This document shows positions 10,811 to 47,617 of a stretch of 64,000 nt of DNA, in pieces. Under the pieces are notes generated by a model that was not told the DNA's origin, made no database searches, and worked only from the letters and a program-made list of their open reading frames with translations. Each line of letters opens with the position of its first letter. Within the stretch, counting starts at the first letter, position 1. The DNA is from Labia minor. Its lineage: Eukaryota; Arthropoda; Insecta; Dermaptera; Spongiphoridae. The stretch is taken from positions 21,981,875 through 22,045,874 of the forward strand of contig OY720350.1 of assembly GCA_963082975.1 (NCBI GenBank), written 5' to 3'. The position numbers and the translations under genes are program-made.

Positions 10811-11905
10811 ATGGATCTTTATTCTCAAGAAGAGAGAAAATATCCAATATATATTGGTAAGTTATAGGTGTGATTGTTCATATATATTATTATTAATTTT
10901 CACAAATATTATTTTTTTAAAATTTAATTTGTAATAACATTATGATTAATAATTATGAATTTTAAAATAGTTTTAAATAAGTTTAAAACCTTTTAAACCA
11001 ATGAAAATGGAAATATTGTTTTAGGTCCTTTATATACTTGTCATTATTGTCATTCAAATTATATAAATGAGGAATTTTTGTCTAAACATTTTAAAAAATG
11101 TATTCATAAAAAAATATTTTCAATTTTAAAAAATAAAATAAAATTCAAAAAAGATACAGATAAGTATCCCAAGGAATACAGTCATGACCTAAAACTTGAA
11201 CAAGATTTTAAAAAATGTATTCGTAAAAAAATATTTTCAATTTTAAAAAATAAATTAAAACTCAAAAAAGATACAGATAAGTATCCCAAGGAATATAGTC
11301 ATGACCTAAAACTTGAACAAAATACCAATTCAACTAAATCGGATGAAAAACTTTTTGAATGCAAGTTTTGTAAAAAGAAATTTAATTATAAATCTCAATT
11401 AAAAACACATTTATTATTCCATACTGGTGAGAAGCCTTATGAATGTAATTATTGTAAAAAGAAATTTAGTCATAAATATACTTTAAATAAACATTTATTA
11501 ATTCATACAGGTGAAAAGCCCTTTGAATGTATTTATTGTAAGAAGAAATTTATTCAAAAATCTAGTTTAGATTCACATTTATTAATTCATACAGGCGAAA
11601 AAAACTTTGAATGCAACTTTTGTAAAAATAAATTTTATAGAAAATCGTATTTAATATCACATTTATTAATTCATACAGGCGAAAAGCAATTTGTATGTAA
11701 TTATTGTAAAAAGAAATTTAATCATAAATCTACTTTAGATAAACATTTATTAACTCATACTGGGGAAAAGCCCTTTGAATGTTATTATTGTACAAAGAAA
11801 TTTAATGAAAAATCTAATTTAAAGAAACATTTATTCATTCATAATGGGGAAAAGCCATTTGAATGTAATTATGTACAAAGAAATTTAATCAAAAATCGAA
11901 TTTAA
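10811..11905 (+). CDS. ZF-1: two-exon C2H2 zinc-finger protein, frame broken
   Basis: Exon 1 (10811-10856) encodes MDLYSQEERKYPIYI and ends at GTAAGT. Exon 2 starts at 11025 after TTTTAG. It opens with an odd finger, C-x2-C-x12-H-x4-C (YTCHYCHSNYINEEFLSKHF), then a basic linker. Part of that linker, about 39 codons (around 11085-11201), is tandemly repeated at 11202-11318. Six classical fingers (C-x2-C-x12-H-x3-H, HTGEKP linkers) follow. In the seventh, near 11870, one T is missing, so the frame runs to a stop at 11903-11905. Fingers resume in another frame to about 12110. It was probably a nuclear DNA-binding protein; intact relatives are at 42118 and 46610. A truncated protein of about 290 residues is still possible. 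Confidence 0.8.
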
Positions 11906-12210
11906 AATCACATTTATTAATTCATACAGGCGAAAAACACTTTGGATGTAATTATTGTAAAAAGAAATTTAGTCTAAAGTCTTCTTTAAAAAACCATGTA
12001 TTAATTCATACAGGTGAAAAGCCCTTTGAATGTAATTATTGTAGTAAGAAATTTATTCAAAAATCTCATTTAGATTCACATTTATTAATTCATACAGAGG
12101 CAAAACCCTTTGAATTATAATTTTTGAAATAAGAAATTTAGTAATAAAAGTAGTTTAAAAAGGCATTTATTATCACATACTGGTCCAACACCTTTTGTAT
12201 GAAAATTTGT
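11906..12210 (+). pseudogene. Out-of-frame 3' remainder of ZF-1
   Basis: After the frame break, about three further C2H2 fingers can be read (HFGCNYCKKKF and PFECNYCSKKF motifs) in a second frame to about 12115. Stops and a lost cysteine codon follow near 12115-12140. A last finger remnant ends with an ATGAAAATTTGTACAAAG tail like that after ZF-4. The segment shows that ZF-1 once had about ten fingers. Confidence 0.75.
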
Positions 12211-12239
12211 ACAAAGAAAATATTATTATTTATTATTAC

Positions 12240-12620
12240 AATATTTTTTATTAAAATAAAATCATCATAAGATATACGATTGACTAATTAATTATATTAA
12301 TTATTTACCTTTATCCACTAATAAAAACAATTGAAAACTAATTTATCTATTTATTTAAAAGTATTATACATACCTGTCTCAACCTCTAATCTAGGAAAAT
12401 CTACTTATGTTCGTCTTTTTTGGTAAGTCATAAGATTTTTTCGATTTAGTAACAAATAATTGAAAATAAAAATATAAATATAAGAAAATTTTATAATATA
12501 ACGTTTTTCATATGGAGTAAAAAGAATAAATTTTTTTCTATAAGCCTGAAAAAGTTTCTGAATGATTTGATTTATATTCATCGAAAAACGTAGGGTCATT
12601 TAAAAAGTCTATCTCAATTT
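12240..12620. other. Shared 3' flank of the zinc-finger unit
   Basis: The sequence from about 12235 to 12600 closely matches 47670-48660, after ZF-4, where a family-A element is inserted at 47842-48465. Flank and gene were therefore copied together. No gene is seen. Confidence 0.7.
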
Positions 12621-14390
12621 TAAGATCGATTTCAATTTGTCAAAAGAGCGTTCTGACAAAGGGACGTTGAGAAAAACATTATAAATAAGTTGACCTGTGG
12701 CCAGGTCCGAATCGACCGACGGTTTGAAGTAAATTAATTTCCAGCTACAGAAACAATTTCAAATAATTTTAATATATCTATTAATGTAATAAAAAACAGA
12801 TATGAATATAACATAAATATTTTTAATTTTATTTTATTTATAATATATATGCAAGACCAGGCTGTGATGTCATGAATGGCTGGATGACGTCATATAATTT
12901 TAAATCAAGAAAAAACTAATAAATATGATTTTCCCGAGGATAAAACCAATACAAAGTGCACGATTCGTGGTTATATATAAAAAAATCTCCTCATGTGAAA
13001 TTTGGTGTGAAAATAACCCTTCCCTTCCTATCGTCGATCGCTAATACTACCACTTCCGGTTTCCGGATTTGCACCAAAAGTTGATCAATTCATCCCACTG
13101 ATGCATTAAGTAAATATACCAAATTTCATCAAAATCGGTTGAGCCGTTCAGGCTGTACACATCTATACGGACGGACAGACGGACAGACGGACGGACAGAC
13201 ATCATGCTAAAAATACTTTTTTCTGTTAAGAAAATGCATGATTCGTGGAGATATGTAAAAATCTCCACATGTGAAATTTGGTGTGAAAACAATACCTCCC
13301 TTACTATCGTCGGTCGGTAAAAATGGAATAAAAATTATAATTTTAGTTCTCTTTTTTTAATTCTTACAAAAGAAAAGCATTTTTTCTGTAATTATTGTAG
13401 GTAATTAATTGTTTAAAATTGAAATTTTTATTTATAATTTCAATTTTTTTATTATATTACAAGGAACAATGTATTTGATTAAATACAGGAATACTCTGTT
13501 AACATTACTTAATGCCTGCATATTTCGACGTTCATAACCAGGTATTCTTTCAAACTATAATAATTTTTATCACATAAATTAGAAGCGACCCTGAAAAATT
13601 GCAAAACGAAAATTTCTTTGGAATTAACAAAGGAATCCATTCGTAGAGTTTTATCCAAATTCATAACATGACAACCAATCTCGACAATTACCCAAATTTA
13701 TATACTACTAGTGAGATCGAATACAATTTCAATTATTTTTTTTCTTTTAAATTTATATACGATTTAATATTATTTTTTTATCAATATAAAATCACAAAAG
13801 AGAATTTATTAAATAAAAGAGTAACATTTTAATAAATTTATTTCTTTATGTTTAAATTTATAAAGTTTTTCTAAAAAATATTTTTTAATTTAAAAATGTT
13901 ATATTTTATAATTGTATTCAATGTAAATACAAGGCATTAAATATATATTTTTTTTCCTTCTTTGTTTTAGAAACTAATAAACTATATTTTGTAGAATATA
14001 ATTATTTGTATATAAACGATACATATATAATATCTACCCAATGTTAGAAAGCGAAAAATATTAAACCTCTCAATATATCATTTGTCTAAAAAATTATATT
14101 TTAATTTTTATATATTCTATAAATCGTTTTTATCAGTAAAATATTGTGGATTGTAATAATTGAGAAATAAACCTAAAAACAAAAAATAATCTAACTCATT
14201 CAATTGTCATTGAAATAATATTTTAGACTTAAAAAATAAAACTAAAAAACACTTAAAATATTAAAGCTTTGGTGGTTGTTTTTATTTATAAGTGAATTTT
14301 GTAAATAAAACCGCATATTGATATTTTTTGAATAAATTGACAATAAAAAATATCAATATGTCGTTTTATTTACAAAATTCCCTTATAAAA
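12620..14390. repeat. R1 module copy containing a family A insertion
   Basis: The outer sequence matches 1-1000. Between 12684 and 13320 it is interrupted by a near-complete family A element (AATAAGTTGACC to GTCGGTAAAAA), including the ACGGACGGACAGAC run and the ATCATGCTAAAAATAC block. The copy at 1-80 gives the empty site, so the insertion is certain, although no clear target duplication can be read. No gene is seen. Confidence 0.75.
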
Positions 14391-14489
14391 AACACTTATA
14401 AAACTTTTACCTCCTTCATTTTTAAATAGAAAATAAAAAATATTCAAATAATACAAGAATAAATAAATCTTACCTTCTTATACGAGTAA

Positions 14490-15000
14490 AAAGTGTATAT
14501 ATATATAGCCATGGGTTCTCAAAAACCGCTCTAACGATTTTTTTCTTCTTTATAATTTTACATCTTATCTTATTATGCTAGCTAAAATTGTATATATCTA
14601 TCTATTTATCTATTTATCTATATATATTGGTTCTCAAAAACCGCTCTAACGATTTTTTTCAAATTCACACTAGATATAGTATTTATAAAGAAAAATTAAG
14701 TTTTATTGATGATATCTCTTGAAACATACAGCTTCATTATTAATTTCTTAATTGAAAATTATATATGGAAAACGTCAAAATTGGCATCCATTTTTTAACT
14801 GAAATTGTATTAATATTTTTTTTTATTTAAAATATTTTAAAATTTATTATTTAATTTCGAAATAAAATTAAAAATATTTATTTTTAATAAAATATATATA
14901 GATATTTATTAATCTCTCTCAAAAAAAAAAACAAAAACAAAAACAAAAAAACATACGTCTTGCTAAGAGAGTAAAAAATGTCGTTTTCATCATCTAAGTA
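14490..15000. repeat. Mixed short repeats and one unit of the 2408-type array
   Basis: Fragments of the 2034-2400 repeat (14510-14770) are followed by a single unit of the tandem repeat described at 2408-3240 (about 14800-14950). No gene is seen. Confidence 0.5.
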
Positions 15001-15003
15001 TTA

Positions 15004-15062
15004 TTAGTCTAATGGGTAGAGCGACTGTCTGACAATTCAACTTCGCAGGATCGAAACCGGCG
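15004..15062 (+). other. tRNA-like sequence (A box, B box)
   Basis: TAGTCTAATGGGTAGAGCG fits the A box and D arm of a tRNA, and GGATCGAAACC fits the B box. GCAGG-ATCGAAA-CCGGC can form a T arm with one mismatch. The anticodon stem does not pair and no acceptor stem is evident. I read it as a degraded tRNA or a SINE head rather than a working tRNA gene. Confidence 0.35.
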
Positions 15063-15479
15063 GAAAATAGTTTTTTTTTTTTTTTAATCTATTATTTTTT
15101 AATAAATTACTATTTTATATTTATTTATTCATTGTTCTTTTATTTTATTTTATTAATTAAGTTTTAGATAGTTTTATAATTTTTAATATTTCTTCACTAA
15201 AATATCATTTAATATTTATTAATATTATTTATTTATTATTATTGAGTACCCGAAGTTCCATTCATTTTAATCAGATTGATGCAATGATGCAACATTTAAT
15301 AATAGTAATATTGTAATAAATTTCTATCTTGAAAATTGTTACATATTATTTAGGATATTTTAAAAACAATTTCTTTCTTTAATATATATATATTCTTAAA
15401 ATTGAATTTGTTTAAAATTTAACACATATATTCAATAATATAAATATATATAAAATAATATTAAATTGTATATAATATG

Positions 15480-15760
15480 TGTGTGTAACGGGCGGACCAT
15501 TTATTTTATTTGTAATTATATTTAAACCTGGTGAACTCATCCACTGGAATTGGGTCCCAGGAGGTGCTGCTCAGATGGAGCCCGCCAAAACTGGCCAAAA
15601 CTAAAAGGGATTCCCCTAAAGATCTTAGCAGCCCTTGGCTCGCTATGATAGACAGTCGTTGGAGTCGTTGTGAAACCATTGAGCCACAGAGCATCCGTAT
15701 CAGAGGGGATCACTCAATGCTATTTTTTTCTCACCCTTAGTGATGGCAAGTGATGGCAAT
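15480..15760. other. GC-richer unclassified island
   Basis: About 250 bp have clearly higher G+C than the neighbours. Both strands carry short open frames (plus 15531-15740, minus 15506-15694), but neither resembles a family I recognise and no splice context is obvious. It may be a transposon piece. The flank to 16250 is AT-rich without a gene; 15830-16140 partly repeats sequence at 9960-10190, in inverted orientation. Confidence 0.3.
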
Positions 15761-16257
15761 GATGGCAAACAGGTTGGACATGTGGGAGCGTTTTTACCGA
15801 CCGGAGAGAGGGGCATTTTTAAATTTTTTTTGTATGAATATTGTGAATTTAAAAATTATTTATTGGGATATAAAATTAGCATTACAGAAATCAAATATGC
15901 TTTTTTCAAATATCCAAATAAATAATTTAAATTAACAGAAAACTTCACCTACTTTTATGTAATTTACATAAATAAAATAAACGAATAATGTTCTTGTTAA
16001 TATTTTATATGTATGGATTAAAAATTTTCAATGCCAATATTTGAAACGAGAGAAACACATACGAATTGTTCTTAGTGAGAAGGAAATTTATAAATAAATA
16101 AATAAATAATCATTTCTATTTCCAAAAAGATCACAAGAATCCATAAATCATTGATTAACTAAGAATAATTAATCCAACGCATTTTTAATCATCTAAGTTT
16201 ATCAAAAAATTGAATTACAAACATTTGGGTAAATTTATAAATGAAAAAAATGTGGGA

Positions 16258-17154
16258 TGTCTCCGGTCGGCTATCATGCAAATTCCAATTGGATAAATTA
16301 ACACATATATATTATATTTAAATGAAATTATAAATTAAAATTAATAAATAGTATTTATTAAACCCCAGCGCGAGTTTGGCTCTTTGTTGAGGGCATCTGG
16401 TCACATGCTGGCGCGTGATTGTTAGTCAACGTGCTAAAAAATTAATTCCGGTACTTTTAGCGATTCAAACAAGCTGAAATACTATATATAGGAGTTTTAT
16501 GCAATTTTTAAACATGTGAAAAACGATAAAAGATATACTGAGAGGAGTATGTGAATATATTTGATTTAATAGTGCTTATTGTGAATTTCTATATTGCTGT
16601 GAAATTTGTATTTATTTATCAAATATTAAATAATTTAACTTTGATATTTGATTTGTTACAATGTAATTTAAATTATTTATCAAACAATTTATAATAAATT
16701 TTTCAATGTTATTTGTGTTAAATGTTAAATAAAATTTATATTTATATTTATGCTGGGTTTGTTTCGAATATTATGTGCACGGATACTCTATGTACGGATG
16801 GTATGTCGAGTTTGATATTCAAATAATTGCAGGGAATTCGGAAGGCCTGTGGGAGGGGGTGATCTTTGGTCATTTTTTTTTGCGGTGCCATCTATTGGAC
16901 GCCTGAAGAGTCGACTTTTTTCATGTAACGCCATCTGGTGTTCGAGTTACACCGGTCCCATTGAGCTGATACCCCCCTGCATTGAGCTGATGAGATAGGG
17001 CATGGTACTCAATCCTTAAATTTATGTTTATATGTTCCATGTTCTGAAATATTTGGTAAATTTATCTTTATTTTTGTTTTCTTTCTTTCTATTAAACCCG
17101 TTAACAATATACAAATATTTTGTGAAAGTTTATTTTTATCAACCCTTATTATCT
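16258..17154 (+). mobile_element. LTR-like fossil with candidate primer-binding site
   Basis: The segment starts TGTCTCC and contains a TATA-like CTATATATAGGAG near 16480. It ends just before TGGCGCCCAA (17155), which matches the start of the tRNA-Lys-type primer-binding site used by many retroelements. Its first 300 bases recur in diverged form at 26440-26715. No internal coding region was recognised. Fossil; family uncertain, possibly Ty3/gypsy; old judging by divergence of the two copies. Confidence 0.4.
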
Positions 17155-17469
17155 TGGCGCCCAAATTAAAGTTATATTCTTTATCAAATCATTATTATTT
17201 ATTATTACAATTGTATATAAAAGAATATTTGAATTTGTTTAAATTTTAACACATTTATTCAATCAAGCTACCGCTTCTTATATCTTATTATTTATATTAT
17301 AATTATTAAATAAAATTAAAAATATTTGTTATACCGATATCTGTTTTCATTGCATGAACACATATATCCATACATTAAACTTTTTGTTTATATTTTTTTA
17401 TTTTTAATTTTTAATAAATTTTCTTTTTTGATATGAGATTTTATTAAAAAATTGTATATCAATATTTTT

Positions 17470-17583
17470 TAAAGGGTCGAGCAATAGCTCGGTGTCTCAG
17501 GTATTAATATTACCAGCCAAATTCAATAATAATGAATCATTTTTTTTAACTTAAGTACCGAGCCGAGGCTCGGGGTCCCGGTA
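17470..17583 (+). repeat. Short repeat P copy
   Basis: Same structure as 3578-3690, with both CTCGG-GTCCC motifs. It is followed directly by an R2 module. Confidence 0.6.
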
Positions 17584-17587
17584 CTTA

Positions 17588-18160
17588 TAACAATACTAAT
17601 TACAGTAGTTATAATATATGGGGAATTTTCAACTTTGACCGCCGATTTGACCATGTTCCCGAACGAATTTTAAAAAACCAAGACCAATTTACATTTACAC
17701 ATTTTAAGCTCTAATCGAATCCTAAATCAAAATTTAAAAAAACGAAAAACAGACACACAAATTTATAGATTTTATAAACGAAGATTTATACAATTTATTA
17801 TAATTAATTTGAAACATTTTAGGAAACAAATTTTTATTGGGTCATTTTTAGAAATCCCATTTAACAATTAAACTAAATAATTAAAAAATTGTAAAATTTT
17901 TAAAGTATATAAAAATAAATTGTATAAATTGGTTAAAGGGTCGAGTGATAGTTCGGTGTCCCAGGTATATTTTTTATATCAACACGCCTACTTTTCTGTT
18001 TGTATGTTACCTATTATTTGAATGGCGATTCGGTGAATGGTTAATGGTTAATTAACGATCCATATAACATCATCGACTGGGCCGCTACCATAAGGACTCT
18101 TCTCTTGCTCTGACTAGGGCCACCGTTATTTGCCATTAGACTCTAAAAAATAATAATATT
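17588..18160. repeat. R2 module copy with LINE scrap
   Basis: Near-identical to 1034-1612. The minus strand of about 18055-18150 carries the same LINE reverse-transcriptase relic. Confidence 0.65.
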
Positions 18161-18400
18161 AAATTGTATATAAATTTAAAAATTAGAATATTTGAATTAA
18201 ATTTTAACTTGCCTTATGCAACATGGATGGTTAAATGAATTGGCCACTAAAAATGTTTATAATATTTAGTACTTTTAGTTTATTAAATCAAACTATATAT
18301 ATTATTTTTTATTTCAATATTTTTAATGTTAATACAATTTTATAATCTATAAAATAATTTAATTATTTTAAAAAACGGCGGTCTTCAATTACATTTTTTT

Positions 18401-19754
18401 GGGTTACATTTTCCGGCCCACCAAAAAACGTATTCAGAACGACAAATTTGGAAGTGCAGGCGACAAAAAAAATATACAACGACAAAAAATTGATAAAACG
18501 ACAAAACATGTAAACAAACGACAATTATTGCAATTTCAGATCGAAATATGTATTGGCACTACAAATTACTGGCAAACCACGTCCGTTCGAAATTTGACAG
18601 AAAATTTAAGGTTATATACAAAGCATGTAAAAATATCCTGATAAAAAGTGACAAGTTTTACTGCTGGACTGACATCGCCTGGACAATTAAGAATAGCTCT
18701 AAAAGATTGCGTTTATTTTATGAAGGTAATATATATATATATTTAAAACATTTTTAAATCTTTTTTATTTTTATTTTTTACCCTTACAGTATAATGGAAG
18801 AAATTTTTTGTTTGGAAGATTATCAGGAGGATGAAAATAATGAAAATGTCAATTTCAAAGTAAAGTCATTAAGGAAGAGAACTAAAGGACGTAACTGGCA
18901 TTTTGTAAAAGATTTTAAAGAATCATCAGAAGCAGAAGAATATATCAAAAATGAAAATTCATGGTGCAAAACATCAAAAAAGAACACCTTAGATGGTGAA
19001 AAAGTAGAATTTCGATGTAAGTACGGGAATTATAGGAAGCGTGAGTGCCCCGCAGCCATTTATTTATTGTATCATGCATTAAGTATGAAAGTTTCTCTTT
19101 TTACAACGAACTGTAAACATTTACATTTCAAAAATAATCCTGTCCGTGGGTTAGACCACAGTACAAAAAAATTTATTGTAGATCTATACGAAAAGGGTGT
19201 ACAAAAACCTAATGCAATATTAGCTGCATTTAGAAAAGAAAATATTGCAGAACCACCCAAAACGCGATTATCAAATTTTTTACGCTTATTAAGAACAAAT
19301 ACATATGGGCCAAGTACTATTACTGGGAATGAACTCAATGAATGGTGTAAAGAAAAATTTGCTACAAATGTTTGTTTTATATTATATATATTATTTACAA
19401 TTATATTTATATTTACATTAATTATAATGTATACTCGTTTTGTTAAATAAATTTACTATAAATAAATTTCTGGTTTATTTATTTTTTATTATTTAATACT
19501 TAATAATAAATAACCATCTGTATACAAGTAGTGCAAATAAGAAAAATATAACCTATAAATTTGGCGGTTGCCGATTGTCGCTTTAAAATCTATTTTTGTT
19601 GTGCTTAAAACATAATTTGTCGTGACATGAATAGTTTGTAAGGATACGTAATTTGTCGCGCTAAATACCTAATTTGTCGTTAATTTTACTACTTTTACAG
19701 CTGACAATTTGTCGTGAAAATTACGTTTTTTGACGGCCTATTATTTATTCCCCC
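18401..19754 (+). mobile_element. MULE-like DNA transposon, 1.35 kb
   Basis: The left subterminal sequence GGCCCACCAAAAAACGTA and the inverse of the right one, GGCCGTCAAAAAACGTAA, are clear imperfect inverted repeats. Both lead into CGACAAATT motifs that recur through both ends. Outer ends are GGG and CCC, flanked by ATTTTTTT (18393-18400 and from 19755). The paralogous region near 49690-49730 (inverted) lacks the insert and gives the empty site. An 8-10 bp duplication and the encoded protein fit a Mutator-like element; the catalytic domain is missing. Confidence 0.75.
18794..19450 (+). CDS. MULE-type N-terminal zinc-finger protein, no catalytic core
   Basis: The 218-codon frame starts MEEIFCLEDYQEDENNENVN. 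It contains a WRKY/FLYWCH-like metal-binding region: WHFVKDFKESSEAEEYI, FRCKYGNYRKRECPAAIYLL, then NCKHLHF, with cysteines and an H-x-H pair spaced as in the N-terminal DNA-binding part of Mutator-like transposases. A helical segment follows (about residues 120-170), then a hydrophobic tail of about 25 residues likely read from non-coding DNA. The DDE catalytic region is absent. An acceptor-like TTACAG just upstream (18784-18789) suggests an earlier exon, perhaps within 18399-18724. It lies wholly inside the inverted repeats of 18401-19754. Expression is unknown. Confidence 0.6.
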   Translation: MEEIFCLEDYQEDENNENVNFKVKSLRKRTKGRNWHFVKDFKESSEAEEYIKNENSWCKTSKKNTLDGEKVEFRCKYGNYRKRECPAAIYLLYHALSMKVSLFTTNCKHLHFKNNPVRGLDHSTKKFIVDLYEKGVQKPNAILAAFRKENIAEPPKTRLSNFLRLLRTNTYGPSTITGNELNEWCKEKFATNVCFILYILFTIIFIFTLIIMYTRFVK

Positions 19755-19759
19755 ATTTT

Positions 19760-21320
19760 TTTTTACTCTCTACTGGCTGTTCATTTCATAACTGAATATA
19801 GTGTTGAATAGAAATAGACGATATTACTTGGATTAATCTTATTATGCTAGATAAAATTGTTTGTTTGTATTATTGAGGACCCCAGTTCCACTCATTTTAA
19901 TCAGATTGATGCAATGATGCAACATTTAATAATTGTAATAAATAATTAAAGAATTGTATATAAAAAATAATGAATCATTTTTTTTAACTTAAGTACCTAG
20001 CCGAGGCTCGGGGTCCCGGTACTTTTTTACTAAATTGAAAGACATTTAAACTTACCATACCAAATAAACGAAAAAAGTAGATTTTCCTTAGTTGAGGTTG
20101 AGATTTGAATGTATAATACTTTTAAATAAATAGATAAATTAATTTACAAATGTGTTTATTGATGGAAAAAGTTAAATAATAAATAATTAATCTAATATAG
20201 TCAATCGTATATGTGAGGTTTAGTGGAAATATGGAAAAAATAACACGAATGGAATGGGTAGCAATATCAAACTATCAACTTTACAAATCATTAATGGAAA
20301 CAAAACAGCTATTATAAATAATACTGTAAAATGTAGCACTGGGTCGAATTGTGAAGATGATCGAAACCAAATTCTCCTCTCCTACAAACCCCCCCCCCCC
20401 CCATAATTAAATTAACTAGCCACAACAATATTAACCTTATCCTTCTCTCCCCTGAGATACCACCACTTTTGATCCTATAACACTCCTGGAAAATAATATT
20501 AACCAGCTGGTCAGAGCGCCTTCGGAGAGAATTTACAGATTAAATTAAAATATATTAAAAATAAGAACACAAAATTCAAGATTATATGAATAAATAATTT
20601 TAAATAATTGATCTCATAATTGGATTTTCATTTTCAAGTATGTATAAGATATTATTGGATGGTTTCAAAATGTATGAGACACATAATAATAATAATATAT
20701 AATTAATTTACTGATTAAATTAAAATATATTAAAAATAAGAACCCAAAAACAAATAAATTTTTTATCTAATATATACTAATTGAATATTTAGTTTATAAT
20801 ATTTTATAATATTGTAATATTTATAGTATGATAAATTGATAACGTCATTTAATTCTCCTATATATCGAATCGAATATAAAGATAAATCTTCTACTAAACT
20901 TTGTGTAAAAAAAATCAAATATGAATATAATATAAATATTTTTAATTTTATTTTAAGAATAGATATATATATCTCACACAGGCGGTGGTTGTGACGTCAT
21001 CCATATATAAATTTAAATTAAGAAAAACTAATGAATATGTATTTTCCCAGAGATGTGATCAATAAAACTTAATTTTTCTTTATAAATACTATATCTAGTG
21101 TGAATTTCAAAAAAATCGTTATAGCGGTTTTTGAGAACCCATATATATATATATATATATTAACAATTTTTACTCGTATAAGAAGATAAGATAAGTATAA
21201 TTGATTCTAAAAATTTTCATTTCTCAATATTCCTTCTAAATAAAAATAAATTTAAAAAAGGTGACAAAATTCAACAATTCTTTATTCTCAATATTCCTTC
21301 GAAATAGAAATAAATTTAAA
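19760..21320. repeat. Repeat mosaic without a gene
   Basis: It contains a partial P repeat (19965-20022), a segment matching 45720-46190 (about 20025-20480, with a poly-C run near 20391), and a TTACTGATTAAATTAAAATA Helitron-type tail repeated at 20530 and 20700. An inverted copy of the 2034-2400 repeat (20960-21130) and an AT run near 21145 follow. No open frame of interest. Confidence 0.6.
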
Positions 21321-21440
21321 AAACGCGTTAAATGCCCCCACTCCCTTTTTTAAAAATTTTTTAGACTGAGGCACCGCCAGATAGCGCATCACGCGATTTC
21401 AAGAAATAACATTGCGTGTCCTAGTCAGGAGGGGACACGC
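21320..21440 (+). repeat. Zinc-finger upstream segment without its gene
   Basis: AATGCCCCCACTCCCTTTTT through the CGCCAGATAGCGCA motif to TTGCGTGTCC matches the segments before ZF-2 (about 41878) and ZF-4 (about 46358). Here no first exon follows, so it is an orphan copy of the unit's left flank. Confidence 0.6.
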
Positions 21441-37026: not shown

Positions 37027-39154
37027 CAGTGGCGTAACCAGGATTTGATCCTGGGGGGGGGTTTTGACTAGACGCTCCACCTTCCTATGCCCCCCCCCCC
37101 CCGGCTCTCTCAAAGACACATTTTCATTAAGATTTTTTTTTTATATTAAATATTTAAAAAAGTTTTGTAAATGAAACACTGATTTTACAAAATCTGGCAA
37201 AAAAATTTAATTTAATATTTTATTTACTCGTATTCACAGTTTTAGAAAGAAAATATTTTTTTCCAGCTATAAGTAAATTATTTTAGCTTTCCTCATGAAA
37301 TAAGCATAGCTTATACGATGATCGGAAAATTTTGAAAATTTTTGCTCCGAGATTTTTCGAGATTTCCACTTTTCAGACGGTTCTGAATCCAAAACTGCAA
37401 AAAAATAATTTTGAACCGGCTCGTTACCGAGATTACGTCTAAACAAAATGAGATATTGAGTTGAAATTTGATATTTAGTTGTTTTTTTTTTGAGAATGAT
37501 GGGCGGGGATTTTTTTTTGGATTGTTTTTGGACAAGATCGGACCATAAGTAGGGTAGTTTAAAGAGGTGTCAAAGCACATTTTATTGATTTTCTCAATAA
37601 ATACCGATTTTTATGAGAATTATCATACTATAGTATTAAATTTATAGGGAATCGAATTTACTAAAAGTTTCATTATATTCATTTTTACCTAAACTTAATA
37701 ATAAAGGAGTTATTTATAAAAAACTACTTTAAGATTTCGAAAGTTTTTCATCTATTTTGAAAGAAATCATGTAAAAATCCCTAAGAAAAGATCCCTAAAT
37801 GCAAATCCCTAAAAGAATAAATCCATAAATAAAAAATTTCCTTAATTTTTTTTTACTTATTTAATAATAAATAGCCGAATAAACTTGAATGAGGTACATA
37901 TACAATACATCATGCTTGGAGTCATCACATCTGTTCCATCTGGTTTTTTAGCGTCCCATTTTTGATGGTTTGCCTTCATTATGGTCAGAAGCTCATCATG
38001 CGAGTCGCTGAATCGTTTCCTTTGTAGATCAGGCTTCTTACCACGAACATCACGACAGATTTCCAAAGAGATAAGGTTATGCTCAATATGGATTTGCTTA
38101 ATCAGGTCCCATACTAATGTCTTGTAACCTAAGAGTGAACGAAGAGCATTGTTGTAACCTTCCATGTTCGAGGCAAACCCATCAAAGTGGCATCATAGAT
38201 GTTCCCATGTTCCAATGTTCACCTAGCCAAGTGCGCTCGAAATAAGAAAAAAGATCACGAAGTTTTACCCTGTTGATCGTCCGGCTAATGCTTGGTAGGC
38301 TACAATGACGTTTGATGGTGGTACCAAAACCAAAGCTGCAAGAGTTCGTAAATGAGTGGAGTTGAGTGGATTATCTATATCATTATAGAGCTTCAAAACT
38401 TCTGGCATTGATTTGATGTTTCTATAAATGAATTGAGCAAAATGAAAAAGACAACCTCTGAAGATAGTAAATTTCACAAATTGCGTTATATATTCCCTGG
38501 TGAAATATACGGTGCAAATGGTGTATTTTGTATTTGGAATCATTAAGCTATTAAAACGTATGCTAATAAACGGAATTTGAGTAAATTCCCTTTATTTGAC
38601 ACCCCTATTTTTTTGGAAAAATCACGTGTCTGGGCCATATGTATGTATTTTTGGACCTATTTTTCCCTACTTTCGGTCCAGGCCCGATTACCACCTTGGG
38701 AGGTTGTGTCTCAAGCAACCGGGTTTCATGCTCACCTTGTGATTTAATTTTCTGAGACACAATTAAAATTAATACAAAAATGAAAAAATTTGTTTTTAGT
38801 GTTTTTTCAGTCAGCGATATTTTTATTTAGGGATTTATTCTCACAATCATCTAGTAGTCTTATATTGAGTCTTTTGTTTTTTATGATTTAGGAGAAATAA
38901 TAAAATAATTTTTTATTTCTTATATTTAATTCTGTACGAAAAAATAAGCAGGTTTTATTTTTTTAAAATATAATAAACTTACTTATTATACACTAAGTTA
39001 TACTTTAAGAATTATTTTTATTTCAAATAAAAAGGATTAAGTATATTTTTTCTTTTCTATTTATAATATATTACATAATATACAGCAATATATATTTTTT
39101 CTCTCCTGGGGGGGGTTTTAACCCCCAAACCCCCCCCCCCTGTTTGCGCCACTG
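37027..39154. mobile_element. hAT-type element, 2.1 kb, TSD CAGCTTCA, with captured MULE fragment
   Basis: Ends CAGTGGCGTAACCAGG and TTTGCGCCACTG. The 8-bp duplication CAGCTTCA lies at 37019-37026 and 39155-39162. It is inserted into a family A element, and the duplicate at 58610 is the empty site, so insertion followed the segmental duplication. G and C homopolymers lie next to both ends. The left half resembles internal hAT sequence (minus frame MCFDTSLNYPTYGP at 37580, shared with 60564). The right half contains a MULE transposase remnant on the minus strand. Confidence 0.9.
37857..38543 (-). pseudogene. MULE transposase fragment inside the hAT element
   Basis: Two minus-strand frames. 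The upstream one (38265-38543) includes KLYNDIDNPLNSTHLRTLAA and FVKFTIFRGCLFHFAQ. The downstream one (37857-38165) includes MEGYNNALRSLLGY and FSDSHDELLTIMKANHQKW. These resemble the C-terminal region of insect MULE transposases, where a conserved glutamate is followed by N-x3-NAL. The two frames are separated by about 100 bases in shifted frame (still legible as HFDGFASNMEG-type text), so the gene is dead. Its presence between hAT ends implies capture or nested insertion. Confidence 0.55.
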
Positions 39155-40396
39155 CAGCTTCAGAAACAATTTCAAATAATTTTATTATATCTATTAATGT
39201 AATAAAAAACAGATATGGATATAACATAAATATTTTTAATTTTATTTTATTTATAATATATATGCAAGACCAGGCTGTGACGTCATGAATGGCTGGATGA
39301 CGTCATATAATTTTAATTGAGAAAAAACTAATAAAGATGATTTTTCTCGGGGATAAAACCAATGCAAAGTGAATGATTCGTGATGATATGTAAAAAATCT
39401 CCTCATGTGAAATTTGGTATGAAAATAACCCTTCCCTTCCTATCGTCGATCGCTAATACTACCACTTCCGGTTTCCGGATTTGCACCAGAAGTTGGTCAA
39501 TTCATCCCACTGATGTATTAAGTAAATATACCAAATTTCATCAAAATCCGTTCAGCCGTTCAGGCTGTACACATCTATACGGACGGACGGACGGACAGAC
39601 ATCATGCTAAAAATACTTTTTTCTGTTAAGAAAATGCTTGATTCGTGGAGATATGTAATAAGTTGACCTGTGGCCAGGTCCGAACCGACCGACGGTTTGA
39701 AATAAATTAATTTCTAGCTACAGAAACAATTTCAAATAATTTTAATATATCTATTAATGTAATAAAAAACAGATATGGATAGAACATAAATATTTGTAAT
39801 TTTATTTTATTTATAATATATAGCTGAAGTAGCCGGCGTTGCCCGTGATCATAATAAGGAGGCTGTGACGTCATGAAGGGCTGGGTGAAGTCATATAATT
39901 TTAAATTAAGAAAAACATAATGAAGATGATTTTTCCCGAGGATAAAACCAATACATTCGTGGTGATATGTAAAAAAATCTCCTCATGTGAAATTGGGTGT
40001 GAAAATAACCCTTCCCTTACTATCGTCACCACGAGGTGATATGTAAAAAAATCTCCTCATGTGAAATTGGGTGTGAAAATAACCCTTCCCTTACTATCGT
40101 CGATCGCTAATACTACCACTTCCGGTTTCCGGATTTGCACCAAAAGTTGATCAATTCATCCCACTGATGCATTAAGTAAATATATCAAATTTAATCAAAA
40201 TCGGTTGAGCCGTTCAGGCTGTACACATCTATACGGACGGACAGACGGACAGACGAACAGACGGACGGACAGACATCATGCTAAAAATACTTTTTTCTGT
40301 TAAGAAAATGCATGATTCGTGGAGATATGTAAAAATCTCCACATGTGAAATTTGGTGTGAAAACAATACCTCCCTTACTATCGTCGGTCGGTAAAA
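39155..40396 (+). repeat. Family A: interrupted copy plus a second full copy
   Basis: 39155-39657 completes the element begun at 36963 and split by the hAT insertion. At 39658 a second copy begins inside it (GATATGTA then ATAAGTTGACC) and runs to 40396. Within it a block of about 75 bp (GATATGTAAAAAAATCTCCT) is tandemly repeated (39957-40085). The duplicate near 59120 lacks the second copy. Confidence 0.8.
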
Positions 40397-41074
40397 ACCG
40401 AAAATTAGTCGCGCCCTCTGCTGGTCAAACTGATAAGACATGGTAGCTAAATGGGATATCAATGGATTGATATCCAATCTTTAATCCTTTTTATCTCAAA
40501 AACTAGAAGTTCTCCCAAGAAATGCCTAAGGAAAAAGTTTCTTAGAATTAATCAAAGAATCAACTGGCGAAGTTTCATCAAATTCTGCGAAGTGTCCCCC
40601 CTGATCGTATATATACCAATAATTATTTTGAGGATAAAAAAACAATTTTTTCTATAAATTAATGTTAATTTATATTTTTTTAAATGCCATTTGGAAATAA
40701 ATAATAGCTTTGTATACATACCTAAGAGTCTTGTAAGTTTCATATTTTTGTTAGATATTTGATTAATTGCCATAAGAAATCGGTAATTGGCCATTTCGGA
40801 ATCGAACGAAAGCACCACAGACCATCAACAAGACTGGACACCTGGACACGCCCATACATTCCTCTGAAGCCTTATTTGGCGCCCCCTAGGTATTACCCGG
40901 AGCAACTTGATGGAAAAGTGGGTGGGGGGAGTGATGGGCTTTTTGAATTTATTTAGAATTTGGCGCCATCTATTGACCTCCCTCGTAACTACCTGATGTA
41001 AACCTTTTGGGGTGGGGGAGCTTATTGGGCTTTTTAAATTTAATTTTTTTTGAAGGAATAATTGAAATGAAAAA

Positions 41075-41225
41075 AAATTGTGAAAATTTCAGTCAAATGA
41101 AAAATTATTTATTAAACTGACATTTCTTCAAAAAATTTTTATTTTTTGATATTTTTGCTGAAACGTTGGTTTTATCTCCAAATAAATAATTTTTCATTTA
41201 ACAGGAATATTCACAATTTTTAAAT
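41075..41225. mobile_element. Fold-back MITE
   Basis: AAATGAAAAATTATTTATT at the left and AAATAAATAATTTTTCATTT at the right are inverted. Member of the family at 21553-21725; a duplicate lies at 62525-62680. A further related fold-back lies at 41580-41690. Confidence 0.7.
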
Positions 41226-41579
41226 TGAAGCTAGGAAATTTACACATATAAATGAAAAGAGTAATGTTTTATAAGTAATATATTTATTTAAAGAAGGATA
41301 AAAAATAAAATAAATTATGTATTATGTATTATATATTATCTATTACTTAGAACATTACTATTTTCATCTAGCTGTATAAATTAAATAATAACAATTCAAA
41401 AATTGTCAAATTTTTGCACAAGCGAAAAACAATATGTTAAAAAGATATGTTTAATAGTGAGATCACCATATAATTTGTAAATATAATTTTATAATTTTTA
41501 TTAATTTTCAAATAAATATTGTTTATATAATTAAAACATTATTCGTTTCTTTTAGATATGTTAATTATATAACAAGATT

Positions 41580-41690
41580 GTAGAAAAATTTCAGTTTAAT
41601 GAAAAATTATTTATTTGGAAATTAAACTAATATTTATCTCCAAATAGATAATTTTTCATTTAACAGAAAATTTTCTACAATTTTTTAATT
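41580..41690. mobile_element. Fold-back MITE, third copy
   Basis: ATTGTAGAAAAATTTCAGTT and its inverse AGAAAATTTTCTACAAT bound about 110 bp. It sits exactly at the right edge of segmental duplication A. Confidence 0.6.
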
Positions 41691-41874
41691 GTGAAGTCAT
41701 GAATGGCTGGATGACGTCATATAATTTTAAATCAAGAAAAAACTAATAAAAATGATCTTTCTCGAAGATAAAACCAATACAAAGTGCATGATTCGTGGTG
41801 ATATGTAAAAATCTCAACATGTGAAATTTGGTGTGAAAACAATACCTCCCTTACTATCGTCGGTCGGTAAAAAC

Positions 41875-42117
41875 GCGTTTAATGCCCCCACTCCCTTTTT
41901 TAAAAATTTTTTAGTTTGAGACACCGCCAGATAGCGCAACACGCGATTTTAGGAAAAATTGCGTGTCCTAGTTTGATGCGCATGGTCTGTGATTTAAATG
42001 TCAATACAAAAACAAATTTTCAAATATTTATCCTCAGAGCATCTGTATTTATCTCACTTATGTACTGGTAAAATATATAAAAATTATATTTTTTAAAAAT
42101 TAATACTTAAATATAAA
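41875..42117 (+). promoter_or_regulatory. Conserved upstream region of ZF-2
   Basis: It shares with ZF-4 (46350-46609), and in its last 100 bases with ZF-1 (10715-10810), an AATGCCCCCACTCCC block, a CGCCAGATAGCGCA motif and ATTTTCAAATATTTATCC. A TATAAAAATTATATTTTTT tract 35-45 bases before the ATG is also shared. Conservation in three copies suggests the promoter travels with the gene; no transcript start can be proved. Confidence 0.45.
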
Positions 42118-43209
42118 ATGGATCTTTATTCACAAGAAGATAGAAAATATCCAATATATATTGGTAAGTTATAGGTGTGATTGTTCATATATATTATTAT
42201 TAATTTTAACAAATATTATTCTTTTGAAATTTAATCTGACATACCATTATTATTAATAATTATGATTTTTAAAATAGTTTTAAGTAAGTTCATAACATTT
42301 TAAACAAATGAAAATATTGTTATAGGTCCCTTATATACTTGTCCATATTGTCATTCAAATTATATAAATGAGGAATTTTTATCTAAACATTTAAAAAAAT
42401 GTATTCATAAAGAAATATTTTCAATTTTAAAAAATAAAATAAAACTCAAAAAAGATACAGATAAGTATACCAAGGAATGGCAAGACCAACAACTTGAACA
42501 AGATACCGATTCAAAAAATACGGATGAAAAACCTTTTGAATGCAACTTTTGTAAAAGGAAATTTAGACGTAAATATGATTTAAAAATACATTTATTAATT
42601 CATACAGGCGAAAAGAACTTTGAATGCAACTTTTGTAAAATTAAGTTTTATAGAAAATCGCATTTAAAATCACATTTATTAATTCATACAGGCAAAAAGG
42701 ACTTTGAATGTAATTATTGTAAAAAGAAATTTAATCAAAAATCTAATTTAGATAAACATTTATTAATTCATACGGGCGAAAAGCCCTTTGAATGTAATTA
42801 TTGTAATAAGAAATTTATTCAAAAATCTAATTTAAAAACACATTTATTAATTCATTCTGGGGAAAAGCCTTTTGAATGTAATTATTGTAAAAAGCAATTT
42901 AGTGATAAATCTACTTTAAATAAACATTTATTAATTCATACAGGCGAAAAGCAATTTGAATGTAATTATTGTAATAAGAAATTTAATAGAAAATCTATTT
43001 TAAGTAAACATTTATTAATTCATACAGGTGAAAAGCCCTTTGAATGTAATTATTGTAATAAGAAATTTATTCAAAAACCTCATTTAGATTCACATTTATT
43101 AATTCATACAGGTGAAAAGCCCTTTGAATGTACTTATTGTACAAAGAAATTTAATAAAAAATTTAATTTAAAAACACATTTATTAATTCATACAGGTGAA
43201 ATAATCTAA
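42118..43209 (+). CDS. ZF-2: intact two-exon C2H2 zinc-finger protein, 309 residues
   Basis: Exon 1 (42118-42163, MDLYSQEDRKYPIYI) joins exon 2 (42326-43209) across a 162-bp intron with GTAAGT and TATAG. The product starts with the family's unusual C-x2-C-x12-H-x4-C finger (YTCPYCHSNYINEEFLSKHL). A lysine-rich linker follows (about residues 45-70), then eight classical C2H2 fingers with HTGEKP-like linkers, ending HTGEII. All zinc ligands in the eight fingers are present. Residues at helix positions -1, 3 and 6 vary between fingers (RDI, RHS, QNK, QNT, DTK, RIK, QHS, KNT) while the rest is nearly constant. Presumably nuclear and DNA-binding; target unknown. There is no internal ATG in exon 2 near its start, so the exon-1 ATG is the natural start. 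Decayed finger remnants follow to about 43320. Confidence 0.85.
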
Positions 43210-43320
43210 TTATTGTAAAAAAAAATTTAATTTTAAGTCTCAATTAAAAAAAGATTTATTAATCCATACATGCGAAAAGCCTTTTCAATGTGATTTATCT
43301 ACTAAGAAATTTAATAAATA
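43210..43320 (+). pseudogene. Zinc-finger remnants after ZF-2
   Basis: One further finger and part of another (TATTGTAAAAAAAAATTTAA, then a CEKPFQCD-like stretch) can be read after the stop, showing ZF-2 was shortened at its 3' end. Confidence 0.65.
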
Positions 43321-43727
43321 TTAAAATCCATATGGTGACGAAAATAATGATTAAATTAATGAAATTATTAAAAAGAAATACACCCGAAAATACTTTATCA
43401 AATAAGAAATACATTTGGAAATTATTTATGGACTTTTCAATTCATTTACCCATCCAAGTTGCATGAGAAATATTAGTAATATTTTAATATTATAATTTAA
43501 AATTAAAATTTTAAAGTATAATAAACGAACTCAATTTCTGAATTTAATATCCAGTTGATAGTGGAAATTTTCTATTTTATTTGTATATGATAAATATGCA
43601 AGAAAAGCGTGTTTGTATAAATAAATAATTTATAACACGTAACAATTTCTGAATTTAATAAATTTTTTCCTGAAAATTTCAAACCGTACAATACCAAATC
43701 CTGATTCAACGGGGTATTCCTGTATAT

Positions 43728-43923
43728 CAGTGATTCTCAACCACTGTACAGCGGCACTTTAGTGAGCCGCGAGAATTTCAAAATATGCCGACAAATTTTC
43801 CAAATGTAATGAGGCTCTTAAACATTTCGGACTTTTACACTTATCTTTTGATTTGAAAGCCGAAAAATTTTTAAACCGTTAAAAGTGTGCCTCGGTAAAA
43901 AAAAAAAAGGTTGAGAATCACTG
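43728..43923. mobile_element. hAT MITE, 196 bp, TSD CTGTATAT
   Basis: Termini CAGTGATTCTCAACC and GGTTGAGAATCACTG are perfect 15-bp inverted repeats. CTGTATAT is duplicated at 43720-43727 and 43924-43931. It lies between ZF-2 and ZF-3. Confidence 0.9.
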
Positions 43924-43984
43924 CTGTATATAATCAAAACTATTGTTCCCTGTAATAAAATAAAGAATTAATATTATAAAAAGT

Positions 43985-44609
43985 ATTTTCAATTTTGAAC
44001 AAGATTCCGATTCAACTAAATTGAATGAAAAAACTTGCAACGTTTGTAAAAAGAAATTTAATCGTAAATTTGATTTAAAAAGGACATTTAGTAATTTATA
44101 CAGGCGAAAAGCCCTTTGAATGTAATTATTGTAAAAAGAAGTTTAATTTTAAATGTAATTTAAATAATCATTTATTAATTCATACAGGAGAAAAGCATTT
44201 TGAATGTAATTATTGTAATAAGAAATTTATTCAAAAATCTACTTTAAATAATCATTTATTAATTCATTCAGACGAAAAAAACTTTGAATGCAACTTTTGT
44301 AAAAATAAATTTTATAGAAAATCGCATTTAAAATCACATTTATTAATTCATACACGCGAAATGCAATTTGAATGTAATTATTGTAAAAATAAATATAATC
44401 ATAAATATACTTTAAATAGACATTTATTAATTCATACACACGAAATGCCTTTTGAATGTAATTTTTGTAATAATAAATACATTAAAAAATCTCATTTAGA
44501 TTCACATTTATTAATTCATACAGGCGAAAAGCACTTTAAATGCAACTTTTGTAATAAAAATTTTTATAGAAAATCGCATTTAATATCACATTTATTAATT
44601 TTCTTTTAA
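43985..44609 (+). pseudogene. ZF-3: zinc-finger array lacking its 5' part
   Basis: There is no exon 1 and no N-terminal finger. After a frame-shifted first finger (CNVCKKKFNRKFDLKR), an open frame runs from about 44099 to 44609 with six fingers. The last loses its second histidine because the sequence passes straight into an R1 module near 44600 (SHLLIFF, stop). Some linkers are altered (HTREMQ, HTHEMP). It is flanked by ZF-2 upstream and repeats downstream, and is a truncated duplicate. A short protein from the ATG at 44361 is conceivable but unlikely to be functional. Confidence 0.75.
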
Positions 44610-45260
44610 ATTTATATACGATTTAATATTATTGTTTTATCAATATAAAATCACAAAAGAGAATTTATTAAATAAAAGAGTAACTATTTAATAAATTTAT
44701 TTCTTTATGTTTAAATTTATAAAGTTTTTCTAAAAAATATTTTTTAATTTAAAAATGTTATATTTTATAATTGTATTCAATGTAAATACAAGGCATTAAA
44801 TATATATTTTTTTTCCTTCTTTGTTTTAGAAACTAATAAACTATATTTTGTAGAATATAATTATTTGTATATAAACGATACATATATAATATCTACCCAA
44901 TGTTAGAAAGCGAAAAATATTAAACCTCTCAATATATCATTTGTCTAAAAAATTATATTTTAATTTTTATATATTCTATAAATCGTTTTTATCAGTAAAA
45001 TATTGTGGATTGTAATAATTGAGAAATAAACCTAAAAACAAAAAATAATCTAATTTAGTCATTTTAATTGTCATTGAAATAATATTTTAGAATTAAAAAA
45101 TAAAACTAAAAAAGACTTAAATTATTAAAGCTTTGGTGGTTGTTATTATTTATAAGAGAATTTTGTAAATAACACCGCATATTGATATTTTTTATTGTCA
45201 ATTTATTCAAAAAAATATTAATATGAGGTTTTATTTACAAAATTCCCTTATAAAAAACAC
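44600..45260. repeat. R1 module copy
   Basis: Close copy of 366-1010 and 13740-14390, joined directly to the last finger of ZF-3. Confidence 0.7.
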
Positions 45261-46340
45261 TTATAAAACTTTTACCTCCTTCATTTTTAAATAGAAAATA
45301 AAAAATATTCAAATAATACAAGAATAAATAAATCTTACCTTCTTATACGAGTAAAAAGTGTATATATATATATATAGCCATGGGTTCTCAAAAACCGCTC
45401 TAACGATTTTTTTCTTCTTTATAATTTTACATTATAAGAATACTAATTACAGTAGTTATAATATATGGGGAATTTTCAACTTTGACCGCAGAGTTGACCA
45501 TGTTCCCAAACGAATTTTAAAAAACCAAGACCACTTTACATTTACACATTTTAAGCTCTAATCGAATCCTAAATCAATATTTAAAAAATTGAAAAACAGA
45601 CACACAGATTTATAGATTTTATAAACGAACATTTAAATAATTAAAGAATTGTATATAAAAAATAATGAATCATTTTTTTTAACTCAAGTACCGAGTCGAG
45701 GCTCGGAGTCCCGGTACTTTTTTACTAAATTGAAAGACATTTAAACTTACCATCCGAATAAACGAAAAAAAGTAGATTTTCCTTAGTTGAGGTTGAGACA
45801 GGAATGTATAATACTTTTAAATAAATAGATAAATTAATTTACAAATGTGTTTATTGATGGAAAAAGTTAAATAATAAATATAATTAATCTAATATAGTCA
45901 ATCGTATATGTGAGGATTAGTGGAAATAGGGAAAAAATAACACGAATGGAATGAGTAGCAATACCAAACCATCAACTTTACAAATAATTAATGGAAACAA
46001 AATATGTAGCTATTTTAAATAATACTGTAAAATGTAGCACTGGGTCGAATTGTGAAGATCATGGAAACCAAATTCTCTTCTCCTACAATCACCTCCTAAT
46101 TAAATTAACTACCCACAGCAATATTAACATTATCCTTCTCTCCCCTCAGATACCACCACTTTTTATCCTATAACACTCCTGGAAAATAATATTAATAAAA
46201 CAGATGAATGCAGATGATGAGATAAGCATAATTGATTCTACCATTTTTATTTCTCAATATTCCTTCTAAATAAAAATAAATTTAAAAAAGGTGACAAAAT
46301 TCAACAATTCTTTATTCTCAATATTCCTTCTAAATAGAAA
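45260..46340. repeat. R2 fragment, P fragment and shared flank
   Basis: 45436-45640 is the left part of R2 and 45660-45716 the right half of P. 45720-46190 matches 20025-20480. 46230-46350 matches 21190-21330. No gene is seen. Confidence 0.6.
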
Positions 46341-46349
46341 TAAATTTAA

Positions 46350-46609
46350 AAAACGCATTAAATGCCCCCACTCCCTTTTTTAAAAATTTTTTTAGACTTT
46401 AGCACCGCCAGATAGCGCAACACGCGATTTCAGGTAACAACATTGCGTGTCCTAGGCTGATACCCATGGTCTGTGACAGTCTGTGATTTAAAAGTCAATA
46501 CAAAAACAAATTTTCAAATATTTATCCACAGAGCATCTATATTTATCTCACTTATATACTGATAAAATATATTATAAAATTATATTTTTTAAAAATTAAT
46601 AAATATAAA
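46350..46609 (+). promoter_or_regulatory. Conserved upstream region of ZF-4
   Basis: Same block order as 41875-42117, ending in a TATATTATAAAATTATATT tract before the start codon. Part of it also occurs alone at 21320-21440. Confidence 0.45.
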
Positions 46610-47617
46610 ATGGATCTTTATTCACAAGAAGACAGAAAATATCCAATATATATTGGTAAGTTATAGGTGTGATTGTTCATATATATTATTATTAATTTTC
46701 AAAAATTTTATTTTTTTGAAATTTAATTTGTAATAATTATGAAATTTAAAATAGTTTTAAGTAAGTTTAAAACCTTTTAAACCAATGAAAATGGAAATAT
46801 TGTTTTAGGTCCTTTATATACTTGTCATTATTGTCATTCAAATTATATAAATGAGGAATTTTTGTCTAAACATTTTAAAAAATGTATTCATAAAGAAATA
46901 TTTTCAATTTTAAAAAATAAAATAAAACTCAAAAAAGATACAGATAAGTATCCCAAGGAATACAGTCATGACCTAAAAATTGAACCAGATACCAATTCAA
47001 GTAATACGGATGAAAAACCTTTTGAATGCAAGTTTTGTAAAAAGAAATTTAATTATAAATCTCATTTAAAAACACATTTATTATTCCATACTGGTGAGAA
47101 GCCTTATGAATGTAATTATTGTAAAAAGAAATTTAGTCAAAAGATTTCTTTAAAAAAGCATGTATTAATTCATACAGGTGAAAAGCCCTTTGAATGTAAT
47201 TATTGTAGTAAGAAATTTATTCAAAAATCTAATTTAGATACACATTTATTAATTCATACAGGCGAAAAAAACTTTGAATGCAACTTTTGTAAAAATAAAT
47301 TTTATATAAAATCGCAGTTAATATCACATTTATTAATTCATACACGCGAAAAGCAATTTGAATGTAATTATTGTAAAAAGAAATTTAGACATAAATCTAC
47401 TTTAAATAAACATTTATTAATTCATACAGGCGAAAAGCAATTTGTATGTAATTATTGTAAAAAGAAATTTAATCGGAAATCAATTTTAGATAGTCATTTA
47501 TTAATACATACTGGGGAACAGCCCTTTGAATGTGATTATTGTAAAAAGAAATTTAGTCGTAAAAGTAGTTTAAAAGGGCATTTATTATTACATACTGGTG
47601 CAACACCTTTTGTATGA
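46610..47617 (+). CDS. ZF-4: intact two-exon C2H2 zinc-finger protein, 284 residues
   Basis: Exon 1 (46610-46655) joins exon 2 (46809-47617) across a 153-bp intron (GTAAGT to TTTTAG). It has the family's N-terminal C-x2-C-x12-H-x4-C finger and a Lys-rich linker (KLKKDTDKYPKEYSHDLKIE). Seven classical fingers follow, ending HTGATPFV. Helix positions -1/3/6 read YHT, QSK, QNT, IQS, HTK, RIS, RSG. The linker matches ZF-1 almost exactly but is not duplicated. The 3' flank to 48660 is shared with ZF-1, so the whole unit was copied. Likely a nuclear DNA-binding protein with unknown target. All zinc ligands are intact. Confidence 0.87.

Follow-up and report, generated by a model that had tools for sequence, protein, structure and literature searches.

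A two-exon C2H2 zinc-finger family with a constant front end and hypervariable DNA-contact residues in the earwig Labia minor

The window analysed in this work is a stretch of 64,000 nucleotides from the earwig Labia minor (C9:21981875-22045874, within an assembly of 604,477,936 bases in 71 contigs; 26% G+C by base composition). Four copies of a two-exon C2H2 zinc-finger family lie in it: genes B and C are intact, gene A is frameshifted, and the last is a remnant truncated at its 5' end. Members of the family carry a constant front end followed by a variable array of fingers. A six-frame scan detected 31 finger motifs in four groups, all of them on the forward strand and three of them N-terminal fingers. 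Family-wide, we observed a common gene structure, a constrained front end, hypervariable DNA-contact residues, tandem and segmental duplication, and turnover of the finger arrays. The genes and remnants in the window are the following:

10811..10856, + strand: gene A exon 1, 46 nt, MDLYSQEERKYPIYI plus a split G codon, with a GTAAGT donor directly after
11025..12202, + strand: gene A exon 2, a frameshifted copy with C2HC finger, linker with internal duplication and about 9-10 fingers in three frames
42118..42163, + strand: gene B exon 1, 46 nt
42326..43209, + strand: gene B exon 2, intact, with C2HC finger, linker and 8 C2H2 fingers
43990..44609 (approximate), + strand: fourth copy, a 5'-truncated and frame-broken array remnant with at least five fingers, lacking exon 1 and the C2HC finger
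46541..46609, + strand: conserved 5' proximal stretch of gene C
46610..46655, + strand: gene C exon 1, 46 nt, MDLYSQEDRKYPIYI plus a split G codon
46809..47617, + strand: gene C exon 2, intact, with C2HC finger (GPLYTCHYC..H..C), Lys-rich linker and 7 C2H2 fingers

The initial annotation had proposed three members sharing a 46-nt first exon, and we located these exons at 10811, 42118 and 46610. All three are followed by a GTAAGT donor and joined at an AG/GT acceptor (TTTTAG or TTATAG), the junction reading ...YI-G-PLYTC. All three members are indeed present, although gene A is interrupted and the fourth copy had gone unlisted. The first frame of gene A holds six fingers and closes at 11905, a second frame extends to 12120, and a degenerate last finger, in the third frame, reaches 12202. 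The linker of gene A carries an internal duplication at 11085-11320 with a spacing of 117 nt, the motif FKKCI(H/R)KKIFSILKNK being repeated. The Pfam models PF13465 and PF00096 exceed their cut-off in all four arrays of the window, which identifies them as C2H2 (Krueppel-type) poly-zinc-finger proteins. The conserved 5' stretch of gene C, taken together with exon 1, is 88-94% identical to copies on C10 and C1 (a search including ~70 nt upstream, with 40 of 943 candidates scored).

The family extends far beyond the window. Searching with the exon-2 protein of gene C gave at least 220 matches genome-wide, far above chance (139 of 4132 candidates scored), and the 71-residue front end alone gave at least 150, the weakest with an E-value of 2.6e-20 (150 of 1309 candidates scored); 12 of these 150 lie in open frames shorter than 170 aa. 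A search for relatives in viral contigs returned 156 stretches that fit a pattern, none of which was confirmed. For comparison we used 78 distinct loci chosen from the listing, namely 71 of the 72 top-scoring gene C matches (C10:69290489 being left out) and seven lower-scoring ones, a sample biased to well-preserved copies because mostly the highest-scoring places were taken. After removal of seven near-identical copies, 71 genes entered the analyses of array turnover, homogeneity and phylogeny, and 69 (nine copies removed) the within-array comparison of substitution rates. The AG/G acceptor lies at the same place in all 78 loci, the short exon 1 (15 or 14 residues, ending at a GT donor) was detected in 71 of them, with introns of 69-1401 nt, and the number of standard fingers per gene ranges from 5 to 21.

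The genes share a front end in which a peptide of 15 residues encoded by exon 1 is followed by a C2HC finger and a Lys-rich linker; the common front end and linker described earlier were thus borne out in the window genes and in the 78 loci. The spacing given for the N-terminal finger (H-x4-C) was wrong, the actual arrangement being C-x2-C-x12-H-x3-C, with the positions C, C, H and C occupied in 78 of 78 loci. Two places past the final Cys there is His (58 loci), Phe (17), Tyr (2) or Asn (1), and because the Cys is invariant and this later residue varies, we take the Cys, not the later His, as the constant fourth ligand. Judged by this pattern, the front end is a predicted zinc finger of the C2HC type. 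It is under purifying selection, with a ratio of nonsynonymous to synonymous differences per site (pN/pS) of 0.41 over 36 N-terminal codons in 33 pairs; the corresponding values for exon 1 are pN 0.053 and pS 0.104 (14 codons, 25 pairs).

No Pfam family reaches an E-value of 0.001 in the 12 front ends scanned. The widest match was the general C2H2 model (8 of 12, best E 0.0092), and the lowest single E-value was obtained for RasGAP (0.008, in two of the 12), which we take as chance. ZAD (PF07776) gave no match among these 12 N-terminal regions. The comparison with KRAB-ZNF families made in the initial annotation does not extend to membership, as no KRAB match was found in the window exon-2 proteins or the 12 N-terminal regions, the exon-1 peptide being too short to scan. 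An AlphaFold model of the front end is of low confidence (mean predicted local distance difference test score 68.3, predicted template modelling score 0.41) and has a long helix continuing from the finger. Searched with Foldseek, this model gave no match at E <=0.001; the top row was the CCHC finger of MOZ at E 1.5, from which we claim no family. A profile of the N-terminal region against PDB sequences gave a best E-value of 0.02, taken as not significant.

The variability of the family is concentrated at a few positions of each standard finger. In 858 fingers from the 78 loci, the entropy at helix positions -1, 3 and 6 (standard C2H2 numbering, which agrees with an ungapped alignment to ZNF568) reaches 3.22, 3.01 and 2.92 bits, and most framework positions remain below 1 bit. 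The constant framework and variable contacts noted earlier are therefore evident, 2.92-3.22 bits at the contacts against 0-1.2 at the zinc ligands, core and linker, the value of 0 at the ligands arising by construction from the finger pattern, which requires those residues. Next in variability come helix position 5 (2.06), the residue that follows the second Cys (1.91), -2 (1.64) and helix position 2 (1.39). Altogether there are 283 distinct -1/3/6 triplets, and those previously read from the window proved correct (RDI, RHS, QNK and DTK in gene B; YHT, QSK, IQS and RSG in gene C). Solved structural relatives include DNA-bound arrays of the same finger type, the best being the KRAB-ZNF protein ZNF568. 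The loci L031, L059 and L061 do not differ in the first 36 codons of the front end, yet their contact triplets are almost all different on scaffolds that are 96-97% identical (best ungapped offset).

Substitution rates were estimated with contact and framework codons separated, as the initial annotation had proposed, and equal rates were found in none of the fitted sets. The pair sets exclude pairs more than 99.85% identical and use each gene once. Counting over 34 non-overlapping gene pairs, a loose set that may mix in fingers which are not true counterparts, gave a pN of 0.255 at contacts, 0.027 in the rest of the framework and 0.004 at zinc and core residues, with a pS of 0.069 overall and 0.135 at contact codons. 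In nine strict pairs the ratio of contact to framework pN is still about 5 (2.1-10.8). A codon model with one shared time per pair and separate ratios of nonsynonymous to synonymous rates (dN/dS) for three classes of sites gave, for the 34 loose pairs, 2.61 at contact, 0.50 at surface and 0.16 at framework sites, this being the only set of pairs that rejects a contact value of 1. Comparing adjacent fingers within arrays requires no matching of fingers between genes, and here the values are 3.52, 0.44 and 0.11 (69 genes, 349 finger pairs); fixing the contact class at 1 costs 265 units of twice the log-likelihood difference (2dlnL). The within-array value may be inflated by codon bias (89% of framework third positions are A or T) or by homogenisation at synonymous sites. 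A contact-only fit within arrays was saturated (dN/dS 41) and was not used.

Beyond point substitution, the arrays themselves are rearranged. Framework differences amount to 6.7% within one gene versus 9.3% between genes. Repeated two-finger blocks occur 36 times within genes, in 19 of the 71, whereas 500 random reorderings of the fingers gave 13.1 on average and never more than 22. For three-finger blocks the observed number is 10, in six genes, and the reordered arrays gave 1.1 and at most 5. Likewise, 159 of 764 fingers carry a triplet repeated within the same gene, against 30 when the fingers are dealt randomly. It is evident that fingers are duplicated internally in these arrays. Among ten recent or collinear pairs, hand-chosen after the triplets were known (gene B appears in two of them, and for four the count was limited to the first 6, 7 or 10 fingers), there were five in which contacts had changed more than flanks (Fisher p between 6e-13 and 0.011).

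The pair formed by gene C and its neighbour C9:22047356 is the most detailed case. In the flanks and intron, 19 of 2641 sites (0.7%) are different, against nonsynonymous differences of about 12/49 (24%) at contacts and synonymous differences of 9.5/95 (10%) elsewhere in the array. This synonymous divergence is 14 times that of the flanks and is beyond point mutation, therefore suggesting imported segments. Finger 2 of the neighbour has 17 differences from finger 2 of gene C and four from a finger of L072. A similar mosaic is seen in L025 and L073, which have fingers 5-7 in common (0-1 differences) and whose first two fingers match different other genes (2 and 6 differences in one case, 3 and 5 in the other). 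These nearest matches are those among the 78 loci compared and do not thereby fix the donors. The mosaics strongly suggest that blocks of fingers have been exchanged between paralogues.

The genes were also said to have been copied with their flanks, which is partly right. Upstream of exon 1, a match in at least one paralogue at equal distance was found for 79-91% of the genes within the first 250 bp and for 20-27% at 0.8-1.25 kb; downstream, the proportion is 88-92% in the first 300 bp and 14-25% beyond 1 kb. As matching decays with distance, the duplications carried flanks of variable length. Some of them are very recent, e.g., L010 and L011, 23.75 kb apart, show no difference over 3765 bases, and such identical pairs may include assembly artefact. 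A tree of the front-end DNA (71 loci) has three main groups, largely per contig, with exceptions. At C9:11125254, 11130920 and 11136586 there are three front ends with an exact spacing of 5666 bases and equal scores, resembling a tandem array of whole genes. Copies lie on at least seven contigs amid interspersed repeats, as would be seen if the genes were passengers of a spreading mobile element. We rejected this explanation as extremely improbable, because homology tapers off in both directions without a shared edge, the 71 of 78 loci in which exon 1 was found all have an intron, and neighbours in the tree mostly come from the same contig.

The window also holds features outside the family. 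The open frame at 18758-19450 (230 aa) matches no Pfam family and seems to resemble the beginning of a FLYWCH/Mutator-type transposase protein, and 60923-61336 matches the C-terminal dimerisation region of hAT transposases (PF05699, E 4.9e-10). On the reverse strand, a single open stretch at 30295-30717 matches 3-hydroxyacyl-CoA dehydrogenase domains (PF02737, PF00725) and may be a gene exon or a fragment. A repeat of ~1.06 kb occurs at 40541-41597 and 61999-63060 (98% identity, 21 kb apart), with further pieces of 97-99.5% identity at similar but unequal spacing, which are young repeats or a broken segmental duplication. The telomere patterns TTAGG, TTAGGG and TTATTGGG gave no matches in a DNA search that skips simple repeats and is thus uninformative on this point. 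For a phytoene desaturase family typical of aphids there were 8 short matches in the genome, all below the cut-off, which speaks against an aphid, and the presence of ZAD domains points to an arthropod.

Large lineage-specific C2H2 expansions with such dynamics are already known, including in insects. The tetrapod KRAB-ZNF genes also combine a short N-terminal module with a tandem C2H2 array, TGEKP linkers, clustered duplicates and hypervariable -1/3/6 residues (excerpts of PMC10547256 and PMC7655104), and the KRAB-ZNF-like mode of evolution suggested in the initial annotation is supported here: a constant scaffold, hypervariable contacts, a contact dN/dS above 1 within arrays, though not in the strictly matched fingers, clustered duplicates with broken copies, and array shuffling. 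What differs is the front end, which in the earwig family is a 15-residue peptide plus C2HC finger with neither KRAB nor any significant family match; KRAB-ZNF proteins are further characterised by transposon binding and the recruitment of KAP1. In cyprinid fish, a lineage-specific N-terminal sequence likewise marks the large FiNZ-ZNF family, with ~700 genes in zebrafish; of seven clades tested, four showed positive selection. FiNZ is described as 28 residues long and Glu-rich, in contrast to the C2HC finger and Lys-rich linker found here (PMC10547256, in the part available). Among insects, the APEZ and ZF271-like genes of pea aphid and milkweed bug are large lineage-specific expansions that form tandem clusters, include pseudogenes and show shuffled arrays; they are set apart by description only, as arrays without another domain, from the C2HC front end and 46-nt exon of the earwig genes (excerpts of PMC6444547). 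The insect ZAD-ZNF genes have an N-terminal zinc-binding module, a linker and a C2H2 array and are evolutionarily dynamic; in Drosophila, positive selection on them falls mainly on the linker and not the fingers, as far as the available part of PMC7655104 goes, whereas the variation described here is centred on contact residues. The front end does not match ZAD, a domain with 15 matches elsewhere in this genome, all over the cut-off (44 candidates scored). In the open-licence literature searched we found no description of the exon-1 peptide plus C2HC front end, and four peptide strings of the family were absent from it.

PRDM9, whose arrays also change through finger shuffling at the contacts, is among the solved relatives. 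Together with Kipferl, a ZAD zinc-finger protein that guides Rhino to piRNA clusters (PMC9531945, in excerpt), it invites the idea that the targets of the family are satellites, centromeres or recombination sites. We regard this as very unlikely, since there is no PR/SET domain in the window exon-2 proteins and at least 150 diverse paralogues suit many targets better than one.

In our opinion, this is on balance probably a large host C2H2 family with a constant front end and a variable array, whose diversity is driven by its targets, most likely transposons that it silences. Each array would read its own DNA sequence, as the solved relatives suggest, and the front end would recruit one common partner. 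Changing targets would keep the family diverse, and these may most likely be transposable elements silenced by the family, by analogy with Wells et al. (2023), the available part of which reports that ZNF and retroelement copy numbers correlate across animals and that FiNZ-ZNF knockdown leads to transposon derepression (PMC10547256). On this analogy, transposon silencing would be the likeliest role. A more specific proposal, that of an arthropod genome defence resembling KRAB-ZNF, with its own effector module (exon-1 peptide and C2HC finger) and at least 150 arrays re-dealt by block exchange faster than their flanks mutate, is offered tentatively, as a possibility short of probable.

Several results weigh against the transposon-driven reading. 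No repressor domain was recognised by Pfam in the window exon-2 proteins or the 12 N-terminal regions, and the other five of the ten hand-chosen pairs have 0 or 1 nonsynonymous contact changes in the counted fingers. In the nine strict pairs, contact pN is 2.1 times the overall pS (bootstrap 0.98-4.3). In the codon model, 14 mutual-best pairs give 1.40 at contacts (p 0.13 versus 1), 0.25 at surface and 0.13 at framework sites, and the nine strict matched-finger pairs give 0.86 (likelihood profile ~0.5-1.4), 0.18 and 0.16. Positive selection at the scale of matched fingers is therefore not proven; the strict estimate is itself biased downward, because its filters also select against fingers whose contacts have changed. 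The strict contact value, near 1, agrees with relaxed constraint, i.e., contacts drifting in a redundant birth-and-death family, with exchange among paralogues spreading the variation. The broken state of gene A and the fourth copy fits this explanation, and the 10% synonymous divergence in the array of the gene C pair, against 0.7% in the flanks, points to exchange rather than point selection. The within-array contact value of 3.5, which departs so strongly from 1 (2dlnL 265), and the continued constraint on framework and front end argue to the contrary, and we consider relaxed constraint unlikely.

The literature adds two further points of caution for transposons as the driver. Repeat content is uncorrelated with ZF271-like expansion in Hemiptera (Panfilio et al. 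2019, PMC6444547), and transposon arms races are not favoured as the sole driver of the Drosophila ZAD-ZNFs (Kasinathan et al. 2020, PMC7655104), both according to excerpts of these papers. These points, along with the conserved front end, would suit transcription factors of the host whose diversity serves gene regulation or the organisation of chromatin and is not directed against transposons. The fast turnover in some recent duplicates is hard to square with stable gene targets, and we deem this explanation doubtful, if worth keeping in mind. Diversification against changing targets, with silenced transposons as the likeliest, is on balance the reading that we retain.

The understanding of fast-evolving zinc-finger arrays is most advanced in vertebrates. 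In the earwig, gene C and its near-identical neighbour provide a case in which an array changes while the surrounding DNA stays nearly unchanged, and the single conserved front end of the family could be used as bait. If this is, as is probable, an arthropod family whose variation centres on the DNA-contact residues, it would permit a direct test of whether zinc-finger arms races have arisen independently in animals outside the KRAB system.

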